From a virus: a stretch of 29,522 nucleotides of DNA. The notes under the pieces are model-generated. The model was not told the DNA's origin. It ran no database searches and saw only the letters and a program-made list of their open reading frames with translations. The stretch is taken from the IMG/VR virus record IMGVR_UViG_3300023109_001452, positions 1 to 29,522 of that record. One strand, written 5' to 3'. Below are positions 1,818-28,535 of the stretch, piece by piece; position 1 is the stretch's first letter; every line of letters begins with the position of its first letter. A program made the translations under genes and the position numbers.

Positions 1818-3125
1818 ATGAGAACACAACCACAAGATATTATCGAAAGACTAGAAGCAGACAACAGTCGACTAGCAAAAGAACAAGTAATTTTAGAAGC
1901 AACGGAAGAAGGACTAGACGAGTTCTTTGAAGGTGTTACTATGGCACTTGATCCGCTTGTGACATTTGGTGTTAAGCAAGTTCCAGAGCGTACAGATGTA
2001 TTAACTGGACAAGGACTGTCTTGGATTGTGTTTAAAGAACTTGCTGATAAACTTGCCAATCGTGAACTAACAGGGCATGCGGCACGTGATGCAATTGAAC
2101 TTGCAATGAGTGTTGCTACTACTGAACAGTGGAATGGTTGGTACCGTAGAATTCTTATCAAAGACTTGCGCTGTGGCGTAAGTGAAAAGACTGTAAACAA
2201 AGTAGTGCCAGGCACTGTGCCTGTGTTTACTTGTAGTCTAGCACATGACAGTGCGAAGCATGAAAAGAAAATGGTTGGTAAAAAGCAGATAGAAATTAAA
2301 CTAGATGGTGTGCGTGTTATTACAATTGTACGTGGCAACAAAGTAGAGATGTTTAGTCGTAACGGAAAACAGTTTCATAACTTCGGACACATTATTGCAG
2401 AGATTGAAGCTGTAATTAAAGATCACCCTGTGCCTTACCCGCTTGTATTAGACGGAGAAGTAATGAGTGCTAACTTCCAAGACTTAATGAAGCAAGTACA
2501 TCGTAAAGATGGCAATCAATCTACTGATGCTGTATTACATTTGTTTGATACTATTCCATTAGGTTGCTTTCAAGCAGGTAGTTGGGACAAGCCACAGAGC
2601 TTTAGGAGCCTTATTACTAATCATTGGGTACGTGATCATCAAGCAACACTACAGCACGTACAAGCGTTAGACTGGGAAGATGTTGATTTGGACACGACAG
2701 AAGGACAAGACCGCTTTGTAGAGCTTAATAAACAGGCTGTAGAAGGTGGGTACGAAGGTGTTATGATTAAAGACGTTGATGCTCATTATGAGTGTAAACG
2801 CACACACGCTTGGCTTAAAGCCAAGCCATTTATTGAAGTAAGTTTGGAGGTAGTAGATGTTGAAGAAGGAACAGGACGAAATGAAGGACGCCTTGGAGCC
2901 ATTGTCTGTAAAGGCACCGACGACGGGCGAGACATTAGCGTTAATGTGGGTAGCGGGTTCAGCGATAGCAATCGTGATGATTATTGGGCTAGCCGAAGTG
3001 ATGTCATTGGCAACATAGTAGAAGTAAGAGCAGACGCAATTACACAGAATCAAGACGGTACATATAGCCTGCGCTTTCCACGCTTTAAAACATTCCGCGG
3101 ATTTGCCGCAGGCGAAAAGATTTGA
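1818..3125 (+). CDS. ATP-dependent DNA ligase (T4 gp30-like)
   Basis: The 435-residue protein seals nicks by an enzyme-adenylate route. The nucleophile motif is E-I-K161-L-D-G-V-R (158-166 region), so K161 carries AMP. It is followed by FSRNGKQF (motif Ia area), VLDGEV (motif III), EGVMIKD (motif IV) and KRTHAWLKAKP (motif V). The C-terminal ~110 residues form the expected OB-fold (VVDVEEGTGRNEGRLGAIVCK...). The N-terminal ~150 residues are the alpha-helical DNA-binding part seen in T4-type ligases; T4 gp30 is slightly longer. The start has an AGAGAGG ribosome-binding site. A sigma70 promoter lies at 1755-1782 inside the previous gene. It sits beside topoisomerase genes, fitting an early replication block. 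Confidence 0.95.
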   Translation: MRTQPQDIIERLEADNSRLAKEQVILEATEEGLDEFFEGVTMALDPLVTFGVKQVPERTDVLTGQGLSWIVFKELADKLANRELTGHAARDAIELAMSVATTEQWNGWYRRILIKDLRCGVSEKTVNKVVPGTVPVFTCSLAHDSAKHEKKMVGKKQIEIKLDGVRVITIVRGNKVEMFSRNGKQFHNFGHIIAEIEAVIKDHPVPYPLVLDGEVMSANFQDLMKQVHRKDGNQSTDAVLHLFDTIPLGCFQAGSWDKPQSFRSLITNHWVRDHQATLQHVQALDWEDVDLDTTEGQDRFVELNKQAVEGGYEGVMIKDVDAHYECKRTHAWLKAKPFIEVSLEVVDVEEGTGRNEGRLGAIVCKGTDDGRDISVNVGSGFSDSNRDDYWASRSDVIGNIVEVRADAITQNQDGTYSLRFPRFKTFRGFAAGEKI

Positions 3126-3128
3126 ACA

Positions 3129-3386
3129 ATGATCAAGGTTCCGTTTGATACTCCATACCACGGCGACAGTATGCGGGCAACTCACGTATCTAGTGTAGAG
3201 TTAGAACGCACACTAGACAACGCATATAAAACTATGGAGTGGTTTAAGTTCTTATCAGACAAGGCAGAACGAGTAGAAATACTTGAAACATATAAAGATG
3301 CTCGAAAGCATGTGACTACAACTGTAGTAGGGTTTGAATTGGACGGGAAGCACGAAACTTACTACAGGTTGAAGTATAATAGTTGA
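3129..3386 (+). CDS. hypothetical protein (85 aa)
   Basis: This starts 3 nt after the ligase stop and is probably cotranscribed with it. The product is a soluble alpha/beta protein: a charged helix (residues ~24-60, VELERTLDNAYKTMEWFKFL...) precedes two short strands (TTVVGFEL, YYRLKY). No motif is recognisable. The stop codon TGA at 3384-3386 lies inside the -35 box of the next promoter. Confidence 0.75.
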   Translation: MIKVPFDTPYHGDSMRATHVSSVELERTLDNAYKTMEWFKFLSDKAERVEILETYKDARKHVTTTVVGFELDGKHETYYRLKYNS

Positions 3387-10531: not shown

Positions 10532-10652
10532 AGCTATACAATGGTACAAACAACTCAGGCAACATCCGCACTATGCATGGTACAATTGTATAGCGTGGGC
10601 AATTCACAATTCAGGCACACACGAACTCGACGGGAGTTATAGAAAATGGTAA
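10503..10652 (+). CDS. possible small coupled ORF (49 aa, TTG start)
   Basis: A TTG overlaps the glycosyltransferase stop (TTGA) and opens a 49-residue frame. It ends 7 nt inside the next gene (ATGGTAA overlap). The product (MTNFKKRVILAIQWYKQL...) is a basic amphipathic helix followed by a Trp/His-rich segment. Both ends show the overlap style used elsewhere in this genome, which argues for a real gene. Against it: no ribosome-binding site, and the TTG is also the start of a promoter -35 box. Transcripts from that promoter would begin downstream of the TTG. Confidence 0.4.
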   Translation: MTNFKKRVILAIQWYKQLRQHPHYAWYNCIAWAIHNSGTHELDGSYRKW

Positions 10653-11740
10653 CACAACGTATAGGCTTTGCATGCAAGTATATGCACCCAGATCAAACAC
10701 AGAAGAAGAAGGTGCTTGAAGAAATTCAGCGTCCGCTAAATACTCGTAGCACAACAGTACAATGGCTTAACAGACAAACTGTTGATGTAGCCGAGCAACG
10801 CTTGTGGGACATTATGGTCCATAACATTGCCGCATACAAAAAGTTGATTGAATATGTTGGAAGTCTTCCTCCAGAACTTAGAATGGTACGACTGGGCAGT
10901 GATGTATTACCTGTTTATACTCAGCGTGATTGGGCTTATTATTGGCAGCAACCAGATGTGGTCGCATACTGCGAACGAGAGCTTGCAAAAGTCGGAGACA
11001 CAGCAAGATTACTTGATGTCAGGTTATCCATGCATCCGGGGCAATTTACTGTACTGGCCAGTGATAATCCGGAAATTGTAGATAGGAGCATAGAAGAATT
11101 TGAATATCACACCAATGTCATCCGCTATATGGGTTACGGCAGACAATTCCAAGACTTCAAGTGTAACGTACACATCTCCGGTCGTCAAGGTCCAGCCGGT
11201 ATCAAACACGCCGTCGACAACAGGCTTTCCCCAGAAGCGAGAAACACGATTACGATCGAGAACGACGAGAACAAATGGGGACTCGAACACAGTCTCGAAC
11301 TTGTTGACACCTGCGCACTCGTTCTTGACATACACCATCACTGGTGCCGCGAAGGTGAATACATACAGCCCACCGACGATAGATTTGCTCGCGTAATAGA
11401 TAGCTGGCGTGGTGTGCGTCCTGCAATACACTACAGTTACAGTAGAGACACAGCACTACCCGAAGGCTTTGCACATGACACAATGCCTAATTTTCCAGCA
11501 CTACTAGAAGCAGGACACAAGAAAGGCAAACTACGAGCGCATAGTGATTACTATCCCAATCAACTTGTTAATGACTGGGCATTGAGTTTCTTGCCTTACA
11601 CAGATATTATGTGCGAGAGCAAGTGTAAGAATCTTGCTAGTATTGACCTATATAAATACAAAGAGGAGTTAAAACACTATGAGCTATTTGAACAAAATGT
11701 ACAGCCGCAGCAAGCCAGCAGAGAGCCCGTCTACGAATAA
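10646..11740 (+). CDS. UV-damage endonuclease (UvdE/UvsE family)
   Basis: The 364-residue TIM-barrel enzyme nicks DNA 5' to UV photoproducts, an alternative to nucleotide excision repair that suits a phage of sunlit water. Diagnostic stretches are IGFACKYMHP (6-15), the metal-binding RLSMHPGQFTVL (126-137; H130), TIENDE (203-208; E205) and DIHHHW (228-233). The length fits the family. It follows a sigma70 promoter (10503-10531) and has a GGGAG ribosome-binding site. A central patch (about 11150-11345) is richer in G+C than the rest of the gene, about 52% against about 40-45% in sampled lines. The last 62 nt overlap the next gene. Confidence 0.92.
   Translation: MVTQRIGFACKYMHPDQTQKKKVLEEIQRPLNTRSTTVQWLNRQTVDVAEQRLWDIMVHNIAAYKKLIEYVGSLPPELRMVRLGSDVLPVYTQRDWAYYWQQPDVVAYCERELAKVGDTARLLDVRLSMHPGQFTVLASDNPEIVDRSIEEFEYHTNVIRYMGYGRQFQDFKCNVHISGRQGPAGIKHAVDNRLSPEARNTITIENDENKWGLEHSLELVDTCALVLDIHHHWCREGEYIQPTDDRFARVIDSWRGVRPAIHYSYSRDTALPEGFAHDTMPNFPALLEAGHKKGKLRAHSDYYPNQLVNDWALSFLPYTDIMCESKCKNLASIDLYKYKEELKHYELFEQNVQPQQASREPVYE
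11651..11658 (+). promoter_or_regulatory. late promoter octamer TATAAATA
   Basis: A perfect T4 late consensus octamer, 20 nt before ATG 11679, inside the 3' end of the UV endonuclease gene. Confidence 0.65.
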
Positions 11741-12835: not shown

Positions 12836-15800
12836 ATGGCAAAACAAGAAATCGACATCGGCGTTGAAGGCAATGACGGAACTGGTGATAGTATTCGCGA
12901 ATCATTTCGCAAAGTTAATGAAAACTTTAACGAAATTTATGCTGTATTTGGCGAAGGTGGCCAGATTAGTTTCACAACATTAGGTGATACTCCTGATAAC
13001 CTTTTACCAAATACCGTTCCTCTAGTAAATGATGCTGCAACAGGGTTCGATCTTGTAGAATTTGATAGTGACAGTGCATTAAACTCTGCAGATGCAGACA
13101 GTGTATTAATTAGTTATACTCCTTCCAGAGATAAAATTATTTTAAGAACTTCGTTTAGAGAAGTATTTCAAGATAAAACTCCTAGGTTAGGAGCATCGTT
13201 AGATGCTCGAGGTGACGGACAAACTTCTGTTGGTATTGCAGTAGGTGAAATTTCCGAAGATGTAGTAACATCATTTAATAATGTTCATCAAGATGCAAAC
13301 AATATTACTATTGACGACTTGGTAATTACTAAAGGATATGCAGATAGTAGATATATTGCAGGCAATTTGCCTGTACGTCTAAGTGACGAGCCAGAAGATG
13401 CTTCAGAATATACGCTAACAATTAACAATTATTCTAATGGTAACTTAGTAATAAACAGTCATGGGTATGATAGAACAATTAACGGTGCTGAATATAAATT
13501 TAATGCTGAAGATACAGATCCAAATGGGTTAGTTACTAACACAGTATACTATCTAAGATATGCAAACACTAATGAATTAAGTATACATAGAACAAAAGAA
13601 GAAGCATCTATACAGGATCAAAATGCTGCTGATTTAAATAGAATTTACGTAACGGGTACCATTGCATCTGATGACATTCATACATTAGTAGATACAGGTT
13701 ACGATTCAAGTTTACAAGGGTTCTTTCTTGCTAACGAAGCAATACCTCGCAAGAGTGCTGTACGCAGACAAGGCGATGTCATGGAAGGTCCGTTAATCTT
13801 ACAGGACAGTCCGGGCGAATTATCAGGACTAACTTCAGATCCAAATGAGCTTCAAGCAGCAACAAAGTACTATGTAGATAACACTTCGTACTCGTCAGAA
13901 GATAATCTTTTTGTTAGTACACAAGGCGACGACAGTATGCGAGGAATACCTTCTGGTAAGGCAGGTACTTCTTTAAACTATGCATTTAGAACAATTAATG
14001 CAGCAGCAGAACGTGCAGAGGAAATGATCCGTGCTTCAGAAGCTGAGCCAGGTCCGTATTTTCAAACTATTACTGTAAATGACGGTGAAAGATCAGCTGA
14101 AGTAAGTGCTGTAGGTCTTAATACTCCATTAGCACAATTTACTAGTGCAAAGTCTATTATTGATAATAACAGATCGTTTATTATCAAGGAAGTAACAGCT
14201 TATTTAAATTTCCAATATCCAAACTTTGATTATAACGTCCAAACATGCGAAAGAGATCTAGGGTTAATGCTAGATTCAATTGGATTTGATATTGCAAAAA
14301 GTTTCAGCGATTCTTTAACTAATGCAAACTCGCTAACTAGAAGAGCAGCTGAAAGATACTATGCAAATGCTAGCGGATTAATTGCAATTACAAGACAGTA
14401 TACAGAAACTGTTGATGCAATTAATAAAGCAAAAGACATAGTTGCTGCGATAATGTTAAACAGACCATTAAACCAGTTAACTATATCTGATATTACACAA
14501 GCTGGAATTGCAAAAGTTACTACTACTATTCCTCATGGTCTATTATCAACAAACATTGTTAAAATAACAAATGTTGCAGGAATGACAGAAGTTAATGATA
14601 ACTTTTATTATATAAAGGTTTTAAATACTACAGAGTTCGAACTGTTTACTGATGAAATATTAGATACTCCTGTAGATTCTACAGCATTTACTGAATATGC
14701 TTCTGCAGGTATCATAGGACAAGTATACCAAACAGATGAAAAGCAATTCTTTAACGGAGTTACACAAACTGATCCAGCAAGAAATGGCATAAGTGATAAA
14801 TTTGATCTTGCTGTAGAAATTATAACAGACGGCATTGGCGAAGGACAAGTAGAAAATCAAGGTAAAACATATTTAATCTCTGTTGATCCAGGTAGCAATT
14901 CATATACTGATCAAGCTAATCCAAATAATAAAGACGTTATTCCCGGCAAGGTTGTTGTTGGTAAAATTTCCGGATCGCAAGGTCGTGTTGTAAACTACTA
15001 TACAAGTGATAACCCTGATAACCCAGACGCAACTGGCACAGTTGATGTTATAGAAATACATCTATTAAAACCAATTGACTTTTTGTTAAATGAAGATTTA
15101 GAATATGGTAACTTTGTTAATAGTAAGCACGTTACTATCTTTATCGAATCGGGACAATACGAAGAAGATTATCCAATTAAAGTTCCGGCAAACGTGTCTA
15201 TTAAAGGTGACGAGTTTAGACGAGTAATTGTTCGTCCTAAGAGACGAGTATCTCAAAGTAAGTGGGCAACTACATACATGTATCGTGATAGAGAGTTTGA
15301 CGGTATAACTGTTGCCGATGAAGGTGCTAGATTCTATAATCAAACTGGTGAATTCCAAGGACATTTTGGTTATCACTATTTAACAAACCCTGAAAAAGAA
15401 AAGAATGTTGGTATTTCGGTTAATAATTCAGGAAACTTTTTAAATGCTGCTGCAATTCTTCATGAAAACAAAAAGTTTATCCAAGAAGAAATTATTAGGT
15501 ATATTAATAATAATGTAAACGATATTTTATACGATAAAACACAATTTGGTTTAGACTTTGAAGATATCATTACAGGCATCACTTATGATATTATTTTAAG
15601 AACTACTTATTATGCAACAACATACGGATTAAAATTCCAAAGAGAAAAATCAATATACCGAGATCAGAAATTAAGAAATATTTGGGTTGATGCACTAACC
15701 GAAGCAAAATCTGTTGTTTCAGGGTATGCAGGCGTAGGAACACTTGCAAATGCAAGCTTCGACGAAATTATTAACATTATTGAAAACGGTGCATTAGAAA

Positions 15801-18800
15801 CAAATACCGGTGCAACCTTCCCAATACCTTTTGTTAATTATGAAGGTAGTACTACAAACGGTGTTAATGCTAAGAATCAATTAGTGGCAAATAGAGGGTT
15901 TATTGCTGCTGAAGCACTTGCATATTTAAACTCAATTACTCCAAGAAAGTACCTTAATCAAGATATAAGATTAAGAGATTTTGGTGCAATTGTTGATGCG
16001 TTATGTCATGATATTCTTTACGGAAGTAATTGGGCTGTAACAGATTTTGCAACAGATTTGTTTATTGAAAATGTAATTAGATTAGAAATTACAACAAGAC
16101 AAGAAACAATTGATGCGTTAGATCATTTAAAGACAGTAATTGAAGATGTTGTATTAGGTAATACAGTTATTCCTACTTCTGGAAATACCGAAACTCAAAC
16201 AATTAGTGGACCATTTGCAACTGCTACTGAAGTAGGAACACTTAATACTTACATTAACATTATTAGTACTCAGATAGACCGAGACAACTTATTATCACTA
16301 GCATCACCGCAACGTCCATTAACAGGACCAGCTGACGGAGCATTATTAACTGCAAAGTCTGCAATGGATGGAAACTTTAGTGGACTCTTAGCATCAACAC
16401 TTATCTTCAACGATAACAGTGCAGAAACAGCTCTTACATACGATGCTAGTAAATGCAGACGTGATGTTGGACTAATTATCGATGCGATGGCACAGGACTT
16501 AGTTAACGGAGGCGATGAATTTTCTACAGAAGTTCAGGGTGAATACTTTGACAGCTATATTATAAGATATAACAACGGCGGCTTTGGTGGACAAGAAAAT
16601 GCTACAAAAGCAGCAATTTTACAAATTCAAACAATTGTAGGAAGATTATTTGATGCAGCTTATAGCGTTAGTGATCTAGAACAAAATCCAAACGATGCAG
16701 GGTATATAGAACCTGACTTTAAATTTGGTGAAGGCGAAGTAGGTGCAGATGTTGTTGTACAAGGTCTATCAGAAAAAATAGTGTTTGCGTTTGATAAAAA
16801 TTATAATCCGCCATTAAGAAACGACGAGATGGACTGTTTCTTAATGAACGATGCTACTATCCTTCGTAACATGACAGTACAAGGACACGGAGGTTTCTTA
16901 TGTGTCCTTGACCCAGACGGACAAATTTTAACCAAATCACCTTATGTTCAAACAGGTTCGAGCTTTAGTAAATCAATTAATAAAAAGATATTCGGTGGTG
17001 GTATGTTTGTTGACGCATACACTGGTAACTTACCTGTATATATTCCCGAAACTATTCAACCAGAAGGAACAGACGGCCCGTCAGTAAGCGGTAAAATTAA
17101 TAACTTTGAATTATGGGTGCAGTCAGAAGAGGGACAAGGACTGTTCATTCGTCCACCGCAGCTTCCATGCCCATTCTATATAGAAGGCAGACGCTATCAA
17201 GTTAATGCAATATCAAGTTATAGTCAATCAAGCGGATGGTGTAAAATCTTCTTAGATAGTACTTCAAACGACGGTGCTGGTTATGACGAAACACAATTTG
17301 AAGAAAACTCAGGGCAAATAGAAAGAACTGTATATTTACAAACAGCTGGTAACCGTTCTATGCTAGGTAACGACTTTACACAGATTAACGATTTGGGCTA
17401 CGGCCTTGTTACTAATAATGGTGCGTTTTCAGAGATGGTTAGTATGTTTACATATTATTGCCATGCAGCATACTATGCAAAAAATGGCTCAGAAATTAGA
17501 TCATTAAACGGTTCTAATGGGTATGGTAACTTTGGACTTGTTGCTGAAGGTGCTGATCCTAACGAGATCCCAGATCAAGTAACATACGCACAGGATATGA
17601 CATTTCCAGTAAAAGGTTACACGTATACTGAAGGCGGCATTACTAGCAACGTACTAGGAGAAAGTTCAATTAGTGTTACTGATTGTAAGTTTCCTCCACA
17701 ACCAAACTCAATTTTGCAAATTGATCATGGTACTCAATTAATTAACGGTAGTAACGTAGATGTCGGAATTAAACGATATAGGATTGGTGCAGTTAATAGA
17801 ATAAGCACCGAAACCGGTGTAGGCGGAGAATTTGATAATACTGTTTATCGACTTCAAATATCTGGAAAACCAAATGGCGATAATGGAGACTTTTATTCAA
17901 ATCTTCAAGGAACAATTGCAGCTGGCGAGTTTATAGAATACAGAACTTCTGAGACTCATATATTTGATAAAGTACGTAATAAAGGAAGAATTGTTGAACG
18001 TCCATCTACCGCAGTAAACTTTGATGAAAGTGATTACGCAACATATAGATCAGTTAGCTTCTCTGGATTTAACAACTACGGCGACGAGCTATCTGCTACT
18101 CAAGTACAAACTACATTTAACATACCATACGACCATATTGAACTTCCGGTAGACTTTGCTAGTATAACTGGCGGCAATGGTAGCGCAGTAGGAGATTCTA
18201 ACATTGCAATTAGACTGGACGACGAAACTGGACTTGCAATTGACGAGTTAGAACTTGCAAGACTTACAAGAGATATTTACGGTAATCAAAACATTGCTCA
18301 ATCCAATCCTAATGCATATAACTTAATTGCTAACAATCTAAAATTTATACAAGAAGAAGTTCTTGCATGGATTAATGCTAATGGTATTGTAACTGGCTCT
18401 TATAATCAGCGTAAATGTTATAGAGACGTTGGCTTAATTGTCCGTGGTATTGCAATGGATTTAAGATATGGCGGTAATGCAAATACAGTACAAAATGCAA
18501 ACAAGTATTATGTAGGTGCAGTACTACAGTTACCAGAAAACCAAGATTCGGAAACAGTACAAGCAATTGACAAAGCAAAAGAAATACTAACACAGTATAT
18601 CTTAACAAAGACTGCATGGACTGCTATTAATTCAAACGGTGTTACACAAAGCACTAGTGGTAGTAATGCAGAATCAGGAACAGCTACAACTGCTGGAACA
18701 CTTATGGATGTTGTAGCAGACGGAATTGAAACTGGCCCTCAAACAATACCTAATGGTAGTAGTGTAACAGGTTATGCAGGTGGTATGATTTTTGCATACG

Positions 18801-21800
18801 CTGGTAGAACACATCAAATCAACGGTGTTACAGATAACGGTGATGGTTCCGCAATAGTATCAATTGAACTTATTCCGTTAGTAGACTTAACAAGTGGTGG
18901 GCAAGGACTAGGTGCTGCATTAACAGAAGATAAAGTGTTATATGTCGGAATACCAGTTGATACTACTGCTGAAATTACTGTAAGTATTTCGCTATGTCGT
19001 GCAACAGGGCATGACTTTACACAAATTGGTACTGGATCGTTTAACGATTCAAACTATCCAAATGTTATTTTAGGCGACCCGGCCAACGAATTAGCAGCAG
19101 CTTATTCGTCAGAGCCAAATGCAACTAGTGCGCAAGTCTGGGAAAGACGTAAAGGGCGTGTGTTCTGGATGTCAACTGACCAATATGGCTTCTTCCGTGT
19201 AGGTCAGTTCTTTAGTGTGGATCAAGCACAGGGTTCTATTGCATTCAGCGGAGAAATTGGCATTACAGGTGCTACAGAGTTAGGCTTTAAGAAAGGTGTT
19301 ACAGTTGATGAATTTTCAATTGATGACACAATGACAGACGAGTCAGATACTGCTGTACCTGTAGAAAAAGCAATTGTACGTTATATTGACAAACGCCTTG
19401 GTAGAAACAAAAATGACGTAAGTGTTTCAGATAGCTTAGGTCCTAATTACGTAACTGCTACAGGTTCAGTAGAAATGGAAAACGATCTTTTACTAGGCGG
19501 TAATAAGATTGAAAATCTAGGAACTCCTACTAACGGCACCGATGCAGTTACAAAAAGTTATGTTGATGCAGCATTACTTGCAAATGATAACTTTGATGCA
19601 CTAAGAGAAACTCCGCCAGCAGGATATGATCAACAAGAAGCAGGTGATATTGTTGTATATACTGGGTACAGAAAAATTATTACAACAGTACCAGCAGATA
19701 GTGGTGCAGGGTCTTTAGTATTTGCAGTAGGTGATGTTATTGAAGATGCAGGAAGCCAAAAAACTGCAACAATTAAGGATCTTGTTCAAACTACAGATGC
19801 TATTGTAGGAGAAAACGAACCAGGAACAAACGTTTGGATTATTACATACGAATTGGGTGCTGGGCCTGCTGGCGATTTTAACTTAGAGCAAGTTGAAGGC
19901 ACTGGTGCAAAAGCAACTGTAAGTGCAACTATTCTTAGAGGACCATTTGACGAAATTGCAAATGCTAGAAATACTTCAGCAAGTGATATCGAATTGACCC
20001 TTACTAGAAATGACGGGTTATTAGACAGCGCCGATACTGGTGCATTTGCAGAACTTGACATTCGAATTTCAGAAGGTGCAATTGATAATGCAAATGTTGC
20101 AGCTAATGCAGCTATTACTCAAAGTAAGTTGTTACTGAATAGAGCATCAACAAAAGATAATAGTACTGGATTATTTGGCAACGGTGATGATACTGGGCAG
20201 TCTAGTAGAGGACTTGCTGTTTTTGATTCAGAAAATTTCGTTGAAGAAGTTCAGTTAACACTAACAACTGGCATTACAGCAGCAGACGGAGACTACATAT
20301 ATCAGGGTAGTTTCGTTGGTGTTGTAGTAGGTAACTACACAACTAGTGTACTAGTAACTATTAAAACAGCCAATAACTGGATTTCTAGTGCAACTAATTT
20401 ACGTTTAGCAACAGTTAGTAACGGACAGATTGGTGTTAGTTCTTCACTAGGAACATCAGTTAGTAATGTTAAATCTTCAGGATTTATAGGACTTAATCCG
20501 CGTTCTGTCAAACTAACTGATATACAAAGTATTGCAACTGATACAGTAATTGGTAGATCTTTGAGTGGTGGCGGAGATACAGCAGAAATTCCGTTTGACA
20601 CAGTTGTTAAACAAGGTTTTGCCTTAGAAGATATTGACTTCTTGAATAGAAGCATTGATGAAAAAAACGGACAAAAATTAACATTTAACGGGTTGATTAA
20701 TGCAGTTGACGGCGAAGTACTGACGCAAGGAAATATAACAGGTGAAGTACAGGGTACTGTAACACAAGAAAATTCGTTGTATGCAGTAAACGTAACAAAT
20801 ACTATTACAGGAAATCCAGCTAATTTTGCAAACGGAAGCATCACTGGATCATCTACTGGTGCAATTGGCACTGTATCGTCTGTTTCGACTGAAAACTTAT
20901 TAGGTGCTGTTTTAGTTAGGCAGGATGAAGGCGTTTACGGTACAACAACAATTAGTGATGGTAGTGACAACAACAGTATAGCTCGAAGAACACCTACAGG
21001 ATCAATCCAAGCTACTGAAATTATTGTAGGTAGCAGCTCATCTGACGTAGTGCTTGCTAACTCGGGAGGTACACTAGTTGTTACTACACCCGGAGGTGGC
21101 GAGGTATTTAGAGCAGCAGGTGCAAGTAAGCCTACAGTGTTAACTGGCGGAAGTGTTGTAATAGGTGACCTAGCAAATACTGCTGCTAACGAAAGTACAT
21201 TCCATGCTAACAGTGCTTATGGTTCAATAGGTGGCGCAGGCACAACAGAAGAAACTAGTGCTATAGCAGCTCGTTGGGTATATACTTCATTCTTAGAAAC
21301 ACCAAATGAAAAAGGCACAGGTAGCACAGGCATTGGTATAGGTTCTAATACTGGATTTGACGAAAGTGCTGCTGATACCATTATTGGTGTAACTAACGGA
21401 ATTGTAAGATTTAACATTTCAAATGCTACTACGGGTATTACTAATAACTTAGCAGTCATTGGAAGTATTAGTTCAGGCACAAATGGCATTTCTATTAACG
21501 GAGCAGGAAATTTAGAAGTATTTAATGCTGCTGGAGCACCGGCAAGAGTATTCCTTGTAGATGGTACTACTGGTAATACTACTATTAGTGGTTCATTAGG
21601 AGTTACAAGCTCTATTAGTACAAACACTAGTTTAGCAGTTGGTACAAGTGCAACCTTTGGAGGCGGCTACGGATCAACAGGTGTTACAATTTCAACTAAT
21701 GGTAACATTAGTGCAAATGGTAACGTACAAGTAGACGGTAATTTAGAAGTTGATGGTAACATTGACTTGGGTAAAGAATCTACAGATACTATTACATTTA

Positions 21801-22294
21801 ATGGTAGGGTTGACTCTAGCATTATTCCAACTGGAACACGTAATTTAGGTAGTTCTACAAACTCTTGGAGTACTGTGTACGGTGGCACATTCTCAGGTAC
21901 AGCTACTACAGCAAAATATGCTGACTTAGCAGAAAACTACTTAGCTGATGGCGAGTACGAAGCAGGTACTGTTATTGCACTAGGCGGATCAGCAGAAGTA
22001 ACAGCTACAGTTACAATGAAGGATCATAGAGTAGCAGGCATTGTTTCAACTAACCCAGCACACTTAATGAACTCGCACTTAGAAGGTGAGCATGTAGTTG
22101 CTGTTGCACTAACAGGGCGTGTACCATGTAAAGTGATTGGTAAAGTTGCAAAAGGTGATATGCTAGTTTCTAGTAATGTTCCAGGATATGCTATGGTAGA
22201 CAACAATCCAAAACTTGGTACACTGATTGGTAAAGCAATTGAAGACAAAGTAGACGACGGTAAAGGTGTTGTTGAGGTACTAGTCGGTAAGTAA
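12836..22294 (+). CDS. giant virion structural protein (3152 aa, fibre/baseplate type)
   Basis: The N-terminus has a motif shared with a later gene here, NDGTGDSIRESFRKVNENFN (14-33), probably the baseplate or fibre attachment segment. From about 350 comes NLFVSTQGDDSMRG...FRTINAA, and near 770-800 FIESGQYEEDYPIKVPANV, typical of right-handed beta-helix (pectate-lyase-like) fibres. Five divergent ~90-residue helical repeats lie near 446-541, 880-963, 1020-1107, 1202-1273 and 1835-1929. A GTDAVTKSYVDA fibre motif sits near 2240. The last ~125 residues (KYADLAENYLADGEYEAGT...) match the C-terminal domain common on marine phage fibres, often annotated as Peptidase_G2/IMC-like and sometimes self-cleaving. 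Preceded by GATAAATA (12784-12791) and GGAG. Which appendage it forms is unknown. Confidence 0.88.
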   Translation: MAKQEIDIGVEGNDGTGDSIRESFRKVNENFNEIYAVFGEGGQISFTTLGDTPDNLLPNTVPLVNDAATGFDLVEFDSDSALNSADADSVLISYTPSRDKIILRTSFREVFQDKTPRLGASLDARGDGQTSVGIAVGEISEDVVTSFNNVHQDANNITIDDLVITKGYADSRYIAGNLPVRLSDEPEDASEYTLTINNYSNGNLVINSHGYDRTINGAEYKFNAEDTDPNGLVTNTVYYLRYANTNELSIHRTKEEASIQDQNAADLNRIYVTGTIASDDIHTLVDTGYDSSLQGFFLANEAIPRKSAVRRQGDVMEGPLILQDSPGELSGLTSDPNELQAATKYYVDNTSYSSEDNLFVSTQGDDSMRGIPSGKAGTSLNYAFRTINAAAERAEEMIRASEAEPGPYFQTITVNDGERSAEVSAVGLNTPLAQFTSAKSIIDNNRSFIIKEVTAYLNFQYPNFDYNVQTCERDLGLMLDSIGFDIAKSFSDSLTNANSLTRRAAERYYANASGLIAITRQYTETVDAINKAKDIVAAIMLNRPLNQLTISDITQAGIAKVTTTIPHGLLSTNIVKITNVAGMTEVNDNFYYIKVLNTTEFELFTDEILDTPVDSTAFTEYASAGIIGQVYQTDEKQFFNGVTQTDPARNGISDKFDLAVEIITDGIGEGQVENQGKTYLISVDPGSNSYTDQANPNNKDVIPGKVVVGKISGSQGRVVNYYTSDNPDNPDATGTVDVIEIHLLKPIDFLLNEDLEYGNFVNSKHVTIFIESGQYEEDYPIKVPANVSIKGDEFRRVIVRPKRRVSQSKWATTYMYRDREFDGITVADEGARFYNQTGEFQGHFGYHYLTNPEKEKNVGISVNNSGNFLNAAAILHENKKFIQEEIIRYINNNVNDILYDKTQFGLDFEDIITGITYDIILRTTYYATTYGLKFQREKSIYRDQKLRNIWVDALTEAKSVVSGYAGVGTLANASFDEIINIIENGALETNTGATFPIPFVNYEGSTTNGVNAKNQLVANRGFIAAEALAYLNSITPRKYLNQDIRLRDFGAIVDALCHDILYGSNWAVTDFATDLFIENVIRLEITTRQETIDALDHLKTVIEDVVLGNTVIPTSGNTETQTISGPFATATEVGTLNTYINIISTQIDRDNLLSLASPQRPLTGPADGALLTAKSAMDGNFSGLLASTLIFNDNSAETALTYDASKCRRDVGLIIDAMAQDLVNGGDEFSTEVQGEYFDSYIIRYNNGGFGGQENATKAAILQIQTIVGRLFDAAYSVSDLEQNPNDAGYIEPDFKFGEGEVGADVVVQGLSEKIVFAFDKNYNPPLRNDEMDCFLMNDATILRNMTVQGHGGFLCVLDPDGQILTKSPYVQTGSSFSKSINKKIFGGGMFVDAYTGNLPVYIPETIQPEGTDGPSVSGKINNFELWVQSEEGQGLFIRPPQLPCPFYIEGRRYQVNAISSYSQSSGWCKIFLDSTSNDGAGYDETQFEENSGQIERTVYLQTAGNRSMLGNDFTQINDLGYGLVTNNGAFSEMVSMFTYYCHAAYYAKNGSEIRSLNGSNGYGNFGLVAEGADPNEIPDQVTYAQDMTFPVKGYTYTEGGITSNVLGESSISVTDCKFPPQPNSILQIDHGTQLINGSNVDVGIKRYRIGAVNRISTETGVGGEFDNTVYRLQISGKPNGDNGDFYSNLQGTIAAGEFIEYRTSETHIFDKVRNKGRIVERPSTAVNFDESDYATYRSVSFSGFNNYGDELSATQVQTTFNIPYDHIELPVDFASITGGNGSAVGDSNIAIRLDDETGLAIDELELARLTRDIYGNQNIAQSNPNAYNLIANNLKFIQEEVLAWINANGIVTGSYNQRKCYRDVGLIVRGIAMDLRYGGNANTVQNANKYYVGAVLQLPENQDSETVQAIDKAKEILTQYILTKTAWTAINSNGVTQSTSGSNAESGTATTAGTLMDVVADGIETGPQTIPNGSSVTGYAGGMIFAYAGRTHQINGVTDNGDGSAIVSIELIPLVDLTSGGQGLGAALTEDKVLYVGIPVDTTAEITVSISLCRATGHDFTQIGTGSFNDSNYPNVILGDPANELAAAYSSEPNATSAQVWERRKGRVFWMSTDQYGFFRVGQFFSVDQAQGSIAFSGEIGITGATELGFKKGVTVDEFSIDDTMTDESDTAVPVEKAIVRYIDKRLGRNKNDVSVSDSLGPNYVTATGSVEMENDLLLGGNKIENLGTPTNGTDAVTKSYVDAALLANDNFDALRETPPAGYDQQEAGDIVVYTGYRKIITTVPADSGAGSLVFAVGDVIEDAGSQKTATIKDLVQTTDAIVGENEPGTNVWIITYELGAGPAGDFNLEQVEGTGAKATVSATILRGPFDEIANARNTSASDIELTLTRNDGLLDSADTGAFAELDIRISEGAIDNANVAANAAITQSKLLLNRASTKDNSTGLFGNGDDTGQSSRGLAVFDSENFVEEVQLTLTTGITAADGDYIYQGSFVGVVVGNYTTSVLVTIKTANNWISSATNLRLATVSNGQIGVSSSLGTSVSNVKSSGFIGLNPRSVKLTDIQSIATDTVIGRSLSGGGDTAEIPFDTVVKQGFALEDIDFLNRSIDEKNGQKLTFNGLINAVDGEVLTQGNITGEVQGTVTQENSLYAVNVTNTITGNPANFANGSITGSSTGAIGTVSSVSTENLLGAVLVRQDEGVYGTTTISDGSDNNSIARRTPTGSIQATEIIVGSSSSDVVLANSGGTLVVTTPGGGEVFRAAGASKPTVLTGGSVVIGDLANTAANESTFHANSAYGSIGGAGTTEETSAIAARWVYTSFLETPNEKGTGSTGIGIGSNTGFDESAADTIIGVTNGIVRFNISNATTGITNNLAVIGSISSGTNGISINGAGNLEVFNAAGAPARVFLVDGTTGNTTISGSLGVTSSISTNTSLAVGTSATFGGGYGSTGVTISTNGNISANGNVQVDGNLEVDGNIDLGKESTDTITFNGRVDSSIIPTGTRNLGSSTNSWSTVYGGTFSGTATTAKYADLAENYLADGEYEAGTVIALGGSAEVTATVTMKDHRVAGIVSTNPAHLMNSHLEGEHVVAVALTGRVPCKVIGKVAKGDMLVSSNVPGYAMVDNNPKLGTLIGKAIEDKVDDGKGVVEVLVGK

Positions 22295-28001: not shown

Positions 28002-28535
28002 ATGCTTATAAAAACAGACGAACTCGGTATCCCGAGGTTTACAAACAAAAACTTAGTTAGTATGATCTATTCAGGACATGCAGATAAAATACATGTGATT
28101 CTCTGTCAAAAAGAAATTGAAACAGAAAAATTTAATAATGCATTAGAAGAGATCGGATTAGATCCTTTACATTGGTATGTGCCATTAAATGTAGATAAAC
28201 AAGACTTTGACGATGTCTGTCAAGGACATTGGTTTATGCCGGATGAATATAAAAATCTTGATGTTTGGAAATACTTAGTTAATAAATGTGAAGAAAAAAA
28301 TCAATGGCCCGAAAATATTAGTAGGATTACAGCAGAGTATAGAGAATTTGAATCACGTAAAATGATTCCTCTTTTACAGTATATAATATATCTTGTAGAC
28401 TTTATGCGTGAACACAATATCGTATGGGGCGTAGGTCGAGGTAGCTCGGTAGCATCATATGTGCTATACTTAATAGGTATACACAAAATAAACTCAATCC
28501 AATATGACCTCGACTGGAGAGAGTTCCTGAGATAA
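28002..28535 (+). CDS. DNA polymerase III alpha (DnaE)-like fragment protein (177 aa)
   Basis: Residues ~77-177 follow the start of the C-family polymerase palm: FMPDEYKNLDVWKYL (78-92), then helices corresponding to DnaE '...YFLIVxDFIxWAK', then VGRGSSVASYVLYLIGI (144-160) and YDLDWREFL (168-176). DnaE has VGPGRGSGAGSLVAYxLxI and FDLLFERFL here. In DnaE the catalytic PDFDVD follows directly; here the chain stops, so it cannot polymerise. The N-terminal 75 residues are not recognisably DnaE. Roles such as template binding, regulation or clamp contact are open. No Shine-Dalgarno; a TTAAAATA box lies 5 nt before the ATG, suggesting a leaderless start. Confidence 0.7.
   Translation: MLIKTDELGIPRFTNKNLVSMIYSGHADKIHVILCQKEIETEKFNNALEEIGLDPLHWYVPLNVDKQDFDDVCQGHWFMPDEYKNLDVWKYLVNKCEEKNQWPENISRITAEYREFESRKMIPLLQYIIYLVDFMREHNIVWGVGRGSSVASYVLYLIGIHKINSIQYDLDWREFLR

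Follow-up and report, generated by a model that had tools for sequence, protein, structure and literature searches.

Likely phycobiliprotein-like domains repeated as knobs within the giant tail fibre of a T4-like phage

The complete IMG/VR virus record IMGVR_UViG_3300023109_001452 (29,522 bases; hereafter the window) encodes a giant fibre protein in which five divergent copies of a helical module interrupt a beta-rich shaft (Table 1). We computed the repeat itself, its insertion sites, its copy-number variation among relatives, the fold predicted for it and the homology that its profile shows to phycobiliproteins. The five copies are likely phycobiliprotein-like domains, of the bilin-binding-globin fold, that were inserted at recurring loop sites and reused as knobs of the fibre. 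We name them phycobiliprotein-like, and not phycobiliproteins, because the window protein scores under the curated Pfam cut-off and bilin binding is no more than a possibility.

Five divergent copies of one helical module

A preliminary description of the window had placed five similar segments at residues ~446, 880, 1020, 1202 and 1835 of the fibre protein, and all five are found there in the open reading frame (ORF) at 12836-22294. Each pair of copies was compared by Smith-Waterman alignment with 1,000 shuffles per pair, and nine of the ten pairs beat every shuffle, with z-scores of 20.0 (copies 1 and 5), 18.5 (3 and 5), 15.6 (1 and 3), 10.4 (4 and 5), 9.7 (2 and 3), 7.7 (2 and 5), 7.1 (3 and 4), 6.9 (1 and 4) and 5.8 (1 and 2). 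The fivefold repeat is therefore real, and the shuffles rule out a chance repeat. The pair of copies 2 and 4 is not significant alone (258 of the 1,000 shuffles reach its score), and these two copies are linked through the others. Plain blastp of the protein against itself gave no matches; self-similarity is found by a profile-based search, in which a five-copy profile iterated on relatives recovers the same five copies and no sixth.

The described alteration of one half in each of copies 2 and 4 holds as well: copy 2 has FGLD in place of the CxRD motif, and copy 4 is without the FI-x-x-E pattern. The length of the repeat unit has to be revised, since the unit extends further by one more helix, near residues 656, 973, 1133, 1305 and 1953 of copies 1 to 5, respectively. 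This last helix is present in the predicted model for copies 1-4 and is read from the sequence alone for copy 5; it brings the full unit to ~120-155 residues. In copy 1, the last two helices are separated by an E1_FCCH domain, and one relative (L037) is shorter by ~86 residues at the position of this domain.

Table 1. Coordinates of the fibre protein, its helical modules and the segments around them in the window.
Feature	Residues	Position (strand)	Basis or remark
Giant fibre protein P0001, 3,152 amino acids		12836..22294 (+)	ORF; PHROGs tail-fibre families phrog_9851, phrog_5342, phrog_4527
N-terminal T4 gp9/10-like segment	3-40	12842..12955 (+)	PF07880, phrog_677
Shaft segment left of site A	353-427	13892..14116 (+)	Conserved in relatives
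Copy 1, site A	last helix near 656-668, past E1_FCCH	14138..14839 (+)	Shuffles, profile, model
CERD motif of copy 1	C471	14246..14257 (+)	
E1_FCCH domain, between last two helices of copy 1	557-630	14504..14725 (+)	PF16190, E 8.7e-8
Shaft segment between sites A and B	764-850	15125..15385 (+)	Conserved; strands in model
Copy 2, site B		15437..15799 (+)	FGLD replaces CxRD; shuffles, profile, model
Copy 3, site B		15848..16279 (+)	RLRD replaces CxRD; shuffles, profile, model
Copy 4, site B		16337..16801 (+)	Shuffles, profile, model
CRRD motif of copy 4	C1207	16454..16465 (+)	
Shaft segment right of site B	1328-1580, with empty site D near 1481-1489	16817..17575 (+)	
Copy 5, site C	last helix near 1953-1965	18299..18739 (+)	Shuffles, profile, single-module model
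CYRD motif of copy 5	C1861	18416..18427 (+)	
Conserved C-terminal domain	2997-3147	21824..22276 (+)	phrog_22593, phrog_19602

Insertion sites and copy number among relatives

The comparison set comprised 74 sequences, namely the window and loci L001-L073, duplicates included; L001 is the window, L002 is identical there and some loci repeat one contig (e.g., L018 and L028), so that locus counts are not independent. The profile search found the module in 72 of the 74 sequences, L025 and L036 being without it. A change of copy number among relatives, which had been proposed as a check of the repeat, was found, with 1 to 11 copies per fibre; the eleven modules of L028 stand in one array over residues 216-1879.

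With conserved flanks used as anchors, the copies could be assigned to recurring sites. First, site B holds three modules (477 residues) in the window, one module in L071-L073 (161-163 residues) and in many others (~310-320 residues), and none in L037 and L039 (10 residues), the two flanks joining directly in L037. Second, site D is empty in the window and carries two modules in, e.g., L040, L041, L045, L046, L051 and L054. Finally, site C has one module in the window and none in most relatives where the site could be placed, and site A is without a module in L014 and L015. Taken with the empty sites, the varying copy number indicates that the modules were inserted into a shaft rich in beta structure. 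That helical modules interrupt a beta-rich fibre, as first described, is borne out both by these empty-site relatives and by a model of residues 353-1545, which places bundles between stretches of strands.

Among the close relatives of the window (26 of the 59 tree rows), modules form per-site clades with support of at least 0.994, and their identity is 59-84% within a site and 12-30% between sites. As judged from these sequences, the duplications appear to be old and the copies to have been kept in place site by site. The contig of L071 also encodes a second, smaller protein (open frame from 17623, 758 amino acids), likewise with two modules.

Predicted fold and similarity to phycobiliproteins

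A single-module AlphaFold2 model of copy 5 was built from an alignment of 87 modules, which omits partial-profile matches, near-identical modules and 14 rows of loci L020-L027, which belong to named phages, and reached a predicted local distance difference test (pLDDT) score of 83.2 and a predicted template modelling (pTM) score of 0.76. Foldseek against the PDB returned phycobiliprotein or phycobilisome/light-harvesting entries in 34 of the best 36 rows (best probability 0.99), the other two being chains of 8u0f, titled a bacterial fluorescent protein. In VIA-align the model scored Z ~11 over ~105 residues, with photocobilin in the first row and phycobiliproteins in most others among the 50 listed. 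Against predicted viral proteins, the best Foldseek matches were to tail or structural proteins encoded by Synechococcus phages or by unnamed or uncultured ones, one row having an E-value below 0.001. The preliminary description was right that the module is helical, and the fold, a predicted phycobiliprotein-like globin domain whose CxRD corresponds to the bilin-attachment motif, had gone unrecognised.

The long AlphaFold2 model (residues 353-1545; 27 sequences, L025 being omitted from the alignment) points the same way, with module blocks mostly at pLDDT 70-92 and dips at 45-68. The copy 3 region of this model (window residues 1001-1148, some rows adding helices of copy 2) reached a best VIA Z of 15.7, including matches to 2vjh_B (Z 15.6, root-mean-square deviation 2.9, 134 residues) and 7lj0_B (Z 15.2, root-mean-square deviation 2.2, 130 residues), and 49 of the 50 listed rows were phycobiliprotein or phycobilisome entries, the remaining one being 8u0f. 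Since this match takes in the last helix, the unit would correspond to the whole globin-like core. When the long model was the Foldseek query, phycobiliproteins stood at ranks 2-5 with probabilities of 0.99-1.00, among unrelated low-probability rows.

Homology is also detected between sequence profiles. By hhalign, the module aligned to 64 non-redundant phycobiliproteins from cyanobacterial loci with a probability of 90 and an E-value of 2e-7 (94 and 1.5e-7 at default settings). The real score of 45.4 compares with 11.5 for a reversed alignment and at most 18.7 for 100 column shuffles, and in a control on 13 families from the same loci (13 of the 20 clusters of cyanobacterial proteins were scored) the two top scores were those of the alpha and beta phycobiliproteins (37.9 and 31.5), the next family scoring 15.8. 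The module profile gave two matches up to E 10 among all PDB sequences, one of them a phycocyanin with CxRD aligned (E 0.56; weak alone). Copy 5 likewise gave two, of which phycoerythrocyanin beta was the better match (E 0.18; weak alone), with a gapless best stretch of 56 residues that sets Cys on Cys. Of 24 phage records, eight have giant proteins that the Pfam Phycobilisome family (PF00502) matches at E up to 1, and four of these, S-RSM4, DSL-LC03, S-PM2 and S-RIM32, pass its cut-off, neighbouring modules having to be summed in the last three.

Several of our results weigh against this assignment. The window protein falls short of the curated cut-off of PF00502; among 17 further phage records the family appears in seven at E up to 0.1 and in none over its cut-off; and it also matches Escherichia coli, Thermus and Deinobacterium controls below cut-off at E up to 1. 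Single-sequence E-values are weak, and a Pfam scan of the 87 modules found PF00502 in three (best E 0.092) and Phage_antitermQ in four (best E 0.0014). On the structural side, all structures here are predictions, the long model has a mean pLDDT of 69, its first Foldseek row is an unrelated transporter (probability 0.08), and all PDB Foldseek E-values for the module exceed 0.001. Helical bundles can get middling Z-scores by chance, and the N-terminal X-Y hairpin through which light-harvesting subunits pair cannot be made out clearly in the module models: many VIA alignments begin at chain residue 28-34, and some extend back to residue 1-6, for which the long model borrows helices from the preceding copy. 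A rival reading is a generic helical bundle that only resembles the globin fold and whose CxRD likeness is convergent; the weak single-sequence matches and the Pfam scan, in which other families match the modules at lower E-values than PF00502, would suit it, and such bundles match many folds. We consider this improbable, since fold search and sequence profile agree on one family and bring the motif into register, and four relatives pass the curated cut-off.

Other searches were negative within their scope. The window copies have no significant Pfam or NCBIfam family match, and the full fibre protein gave one weak, unrelated match among PDB sequences. PF00502 had no match in T4, RB49, KVP40, Aeh1, HTVC008M, P-SSM2, S-SM2 and S-SSM7, nor in S-ShM2 and P-SSM7, although the last two have modules. 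A single scan of species genomes with copy 5, which reaches close relatives only, gave 162 pattern matches, none of which was confirmed as a relative, and plasmids searched with a relative's module gave four chance-level matches (E 4 to 10).

In phycobiliproteins, the Cys of the CXRD motif attaches the bilin, and its Arg and Asp bond to it, as described by Rockwell et al. (2023; PMC10151467). The motif is complete in three of the five window copies, copies 3 and 2 having RLRD and FGLD, and in 110 of the 164 distinct modules that have all three columns present. Across these 164 modules, Cys falls at the motif column in 116 cases and at the next column in 11, being uncommon elsewhere in the module, and Arg and Asp are conserved at 77% and 89%. 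In stretches of 16 isolated cyanophages, Cys is kept in 68 of 77 distinct modules and the whole motif in 46; the five Prochlorococcus phages of this set have the whole motif in 4 of 11 modules. These stretches omit some module matches, e.g., those in a second protein of each of P-HM1 and P-HM2.

Each module has a single conserved Cys, and the 3,152-residue protein contains 12 Cys altogether; the conserved Cys could also serve inter-chain disulfides or metal binding that would lock the fibre. This seems to us a doubtful explanation, given that the Arg and Asp, unneeded for a disulfide, are conserved too and that the module has no second conserved Cys. Under the preferred assignment to phycobiliprotein-like domains, cofactor binding by the CxRD-bearing subset of copies is plausible from the motif.

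The fibre, its phages and their pigment genes

The source virus is taken to be a T4-like phage on the basis of topoisomerase subunit genes and baseplate-connector-like N-termini, and the record is probably a fragment of a larger genome. The fibre N-terminus matches phrog_677, a baseplate wedge tail fibre connector, and, when the first 152 residues were scanned separately, PF07880 (33.5 bits against a curated cut-off of 25); PF07880 is absent from the Pfam result for the full-length protein. Residues 3-40 are thus probably, to judge by their sequence, the baseplate attachment of the fibre. The conserved shaft segment at residues 764-850 is probably a beta-helix, for which a Pectinesterase match below its cut-off (E 0.053) is offered as a basis; we infer this architecture and go no further because model parts 981-1046 and 1151-1193 fall under pLDDT 50. 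Elsewhere in the window, a gene for a UvdE-type UV-damage endonuclease lies at 10646-11740 (PF03851, E 1.4e-35), and a 177-amino-acid ORF at 28002-28535 resembles a portion of bacterial DNA polymerase III alpha (PF07733, E 3e-11), which is odd in a T4-like phage.

In the arrangement we propose, the giant beta-rich fibre would probably hang from the baseplate, and its modules, duplicated long ago, would have diverged to the between-site identities given above, with gains and losses at individual sites among relatives (0-3 modules at each site of the window protein, as many as 11 in a single array of another fibre). Each module would fold as a compact helical bundle and stand out from the shaft as a knob, and the knobs would add length, joints and contact surface. 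The earlier suggestion that the modules form knobs or joints fits the predicted models, and we infer that the knobs space the fibre or touch the host surface or neighbouring fibres.

A search with copy 5 gave matches in 79 of 50,697 phage records, and by the first word of their names these are Synechococcus (56), Cyanophage (12), Prochlorococcus (10) and Marine (1). A profile search found modules in 16 of 25 chosen phage records, with up to 13 matches per genome and in proteins of up to 7,312 amino acids. In P-HM2, a protein of ~4,450 amino acids annotated as the gp7 baseplate wedge initiator (L024, 3607-16971) has two modules. The S-PM2 record (L023, 14221-19048) has many tRNA genes annotated inside the giant fibre coding sequence on the same strand, likely an annotation quirk.

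The distribution of bilin-related genes bears on whether the modules are working biliproteins, in which the Cys would carry a covalent bilin supplied by host or phage enzymes and the pigmented fibre would serve adsorption, a redox or light response, or stability. Among 21 marine T4-like records, CpeT occurs in 13 of 16 with modules and in none of five without (p 0.0028), or 13 of 16 against none of three when the 19 cyanophages alone are counted (p 0.021). Table 3 of Sullivan (2010; PMC3037559), pooled with our Pfam results, gives 11 of 11 with modules and none of three without, this count covering 14 of the 16 phages of that table, with Syn1 counted by Pfam only. Bilin reductase, in contrast, shows no link to the modules in the same 21 records (5 of 16 with, 3 of 5 without; p 0.33), and P-SSM2, S-SSM7 and Mosig have the reductase without detected modules. 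All these associations are post hoc, and their statistics ignore kinship. A split of bilin reductase by host (five of five module-bearing Prochlorococcus phages, 0 of 11 others) was not relied on because it, too, is post hoc, the host of S-RSM4 was read from the phage name, and in P-SSM2 the gene is present with no modules detected. In 39 IMG/VR records, 33 of them under 90 kb, bilin reductase occurs in four and CpeT in none. The large viral contigs behind L049 and L050 (236,751 and 357,559 bases) each carry a module-bearing fibre and a bilin reductase gene.

Reportedly, a phage CpeT studied in 2017 bound phycoerythrobilin and did not pass the bilin to a host subunit. The S-type lyase CpeS is found in none of the 24 phage records, four other cyanophages being described as carrying an S-type lyase gene (PMC10665884), and T-type lyases are said to serve Cys153 and not the CXRD Cys (PMC10452541). 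Related bacterial globins are described as binding bilins without lyases (Rockwell et al., 2023; PMC10151467), so the absence of a lyase does not settle bilin binding. The whole motif in most modules, with Cys mostly at its column and retained in most cyanophage modules, the CpeT association, the role of CXRD and the lyase-free binding all favour a pigmented fibre, as does the gap in what is known of the phage genes, the role of pcyA and pebS being one that "remains a mystery" and that of cpeT "unresolved" in Sullivan (2010; PMC3037559). Two of the five window copies without Cys, the incomplete motifs of most Prochlorococcus phage modules, the unassociated reductase, the missing CpeS, the stated preference of T-type lyases and the post hoc nature of the gene associations all count on the other side, and we consider working biliproteins to be a possibility on the unlikely side. 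Equally tentative is the proposal that the phage bilin genes (pebS, pcyA, ho1 and cpeT) might partly load the phage's own fibres, covalently at the CxRD Cys, instead of or besides the host antenna.

Whether or not they bind bilins, the phycobiliprotein-like domains can be set beside several known systems. They resemble phycobiliproteins (PF00502; phycoerythrin, phycocyanin) in predicted fold, colinear helices, CxRD in register and profile-level homology, and differ in that the module sits inside a phage fibre, is repeated and more divergent, has no clear X-Y hairpin, lies under the Pfam cut-off in the window and has only a putative bilin. They can be likened, by description, to bilin-binding globins (BBAG/photoglobin), which lie outside the antenna and carry CXRD or CXQD and, unlike the phage modules, are bacterial proteins associated with bilin-gene clusters (Rockwell et al., 2023; PMC10151467). 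The same modules occur in giant tail-fibre or structural proteins of cyanomyoviruses (phrog_4527, phrog_5342; S-RSM4, S-PM2, S-RIM32) of ~2,900-7,300 amino acids, whose annotations in the records examined read tail fibre, baseplate or structural protein and do not name the module. Likeness to the T4 gp9/gp10 N-terminal family (PF07880) is limited to residues 3-40, which pass its cut-off.

Among the matches listed in the literature search (titles and abstract openings, with few subscription papers and no bioRxiv), there was no description of phage fibres with phycobiliprotein-like domains. As tail fibres the proteins were already known, and the present analysis gives a likely identity to a module of marine T4-like phages that the annotations examined leave unnamed. 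A light-harvesting fold appears to have been reused many times inside giant phage fibres, and the motif kept in three of the five copies offers a testable explanation for the pigment genes of related phages. If the fibres take no bilins, the fold would have turned into a purely structural or adhesive knob; if they do, pigments made by the phage would have an acceptor in the virion. With fibres as candidate bilin acceptors, the role of phage pcyA, pebS and cpeT, for which Sullivan (2010; PMC3037559) gives no settled answer, becomes testable.

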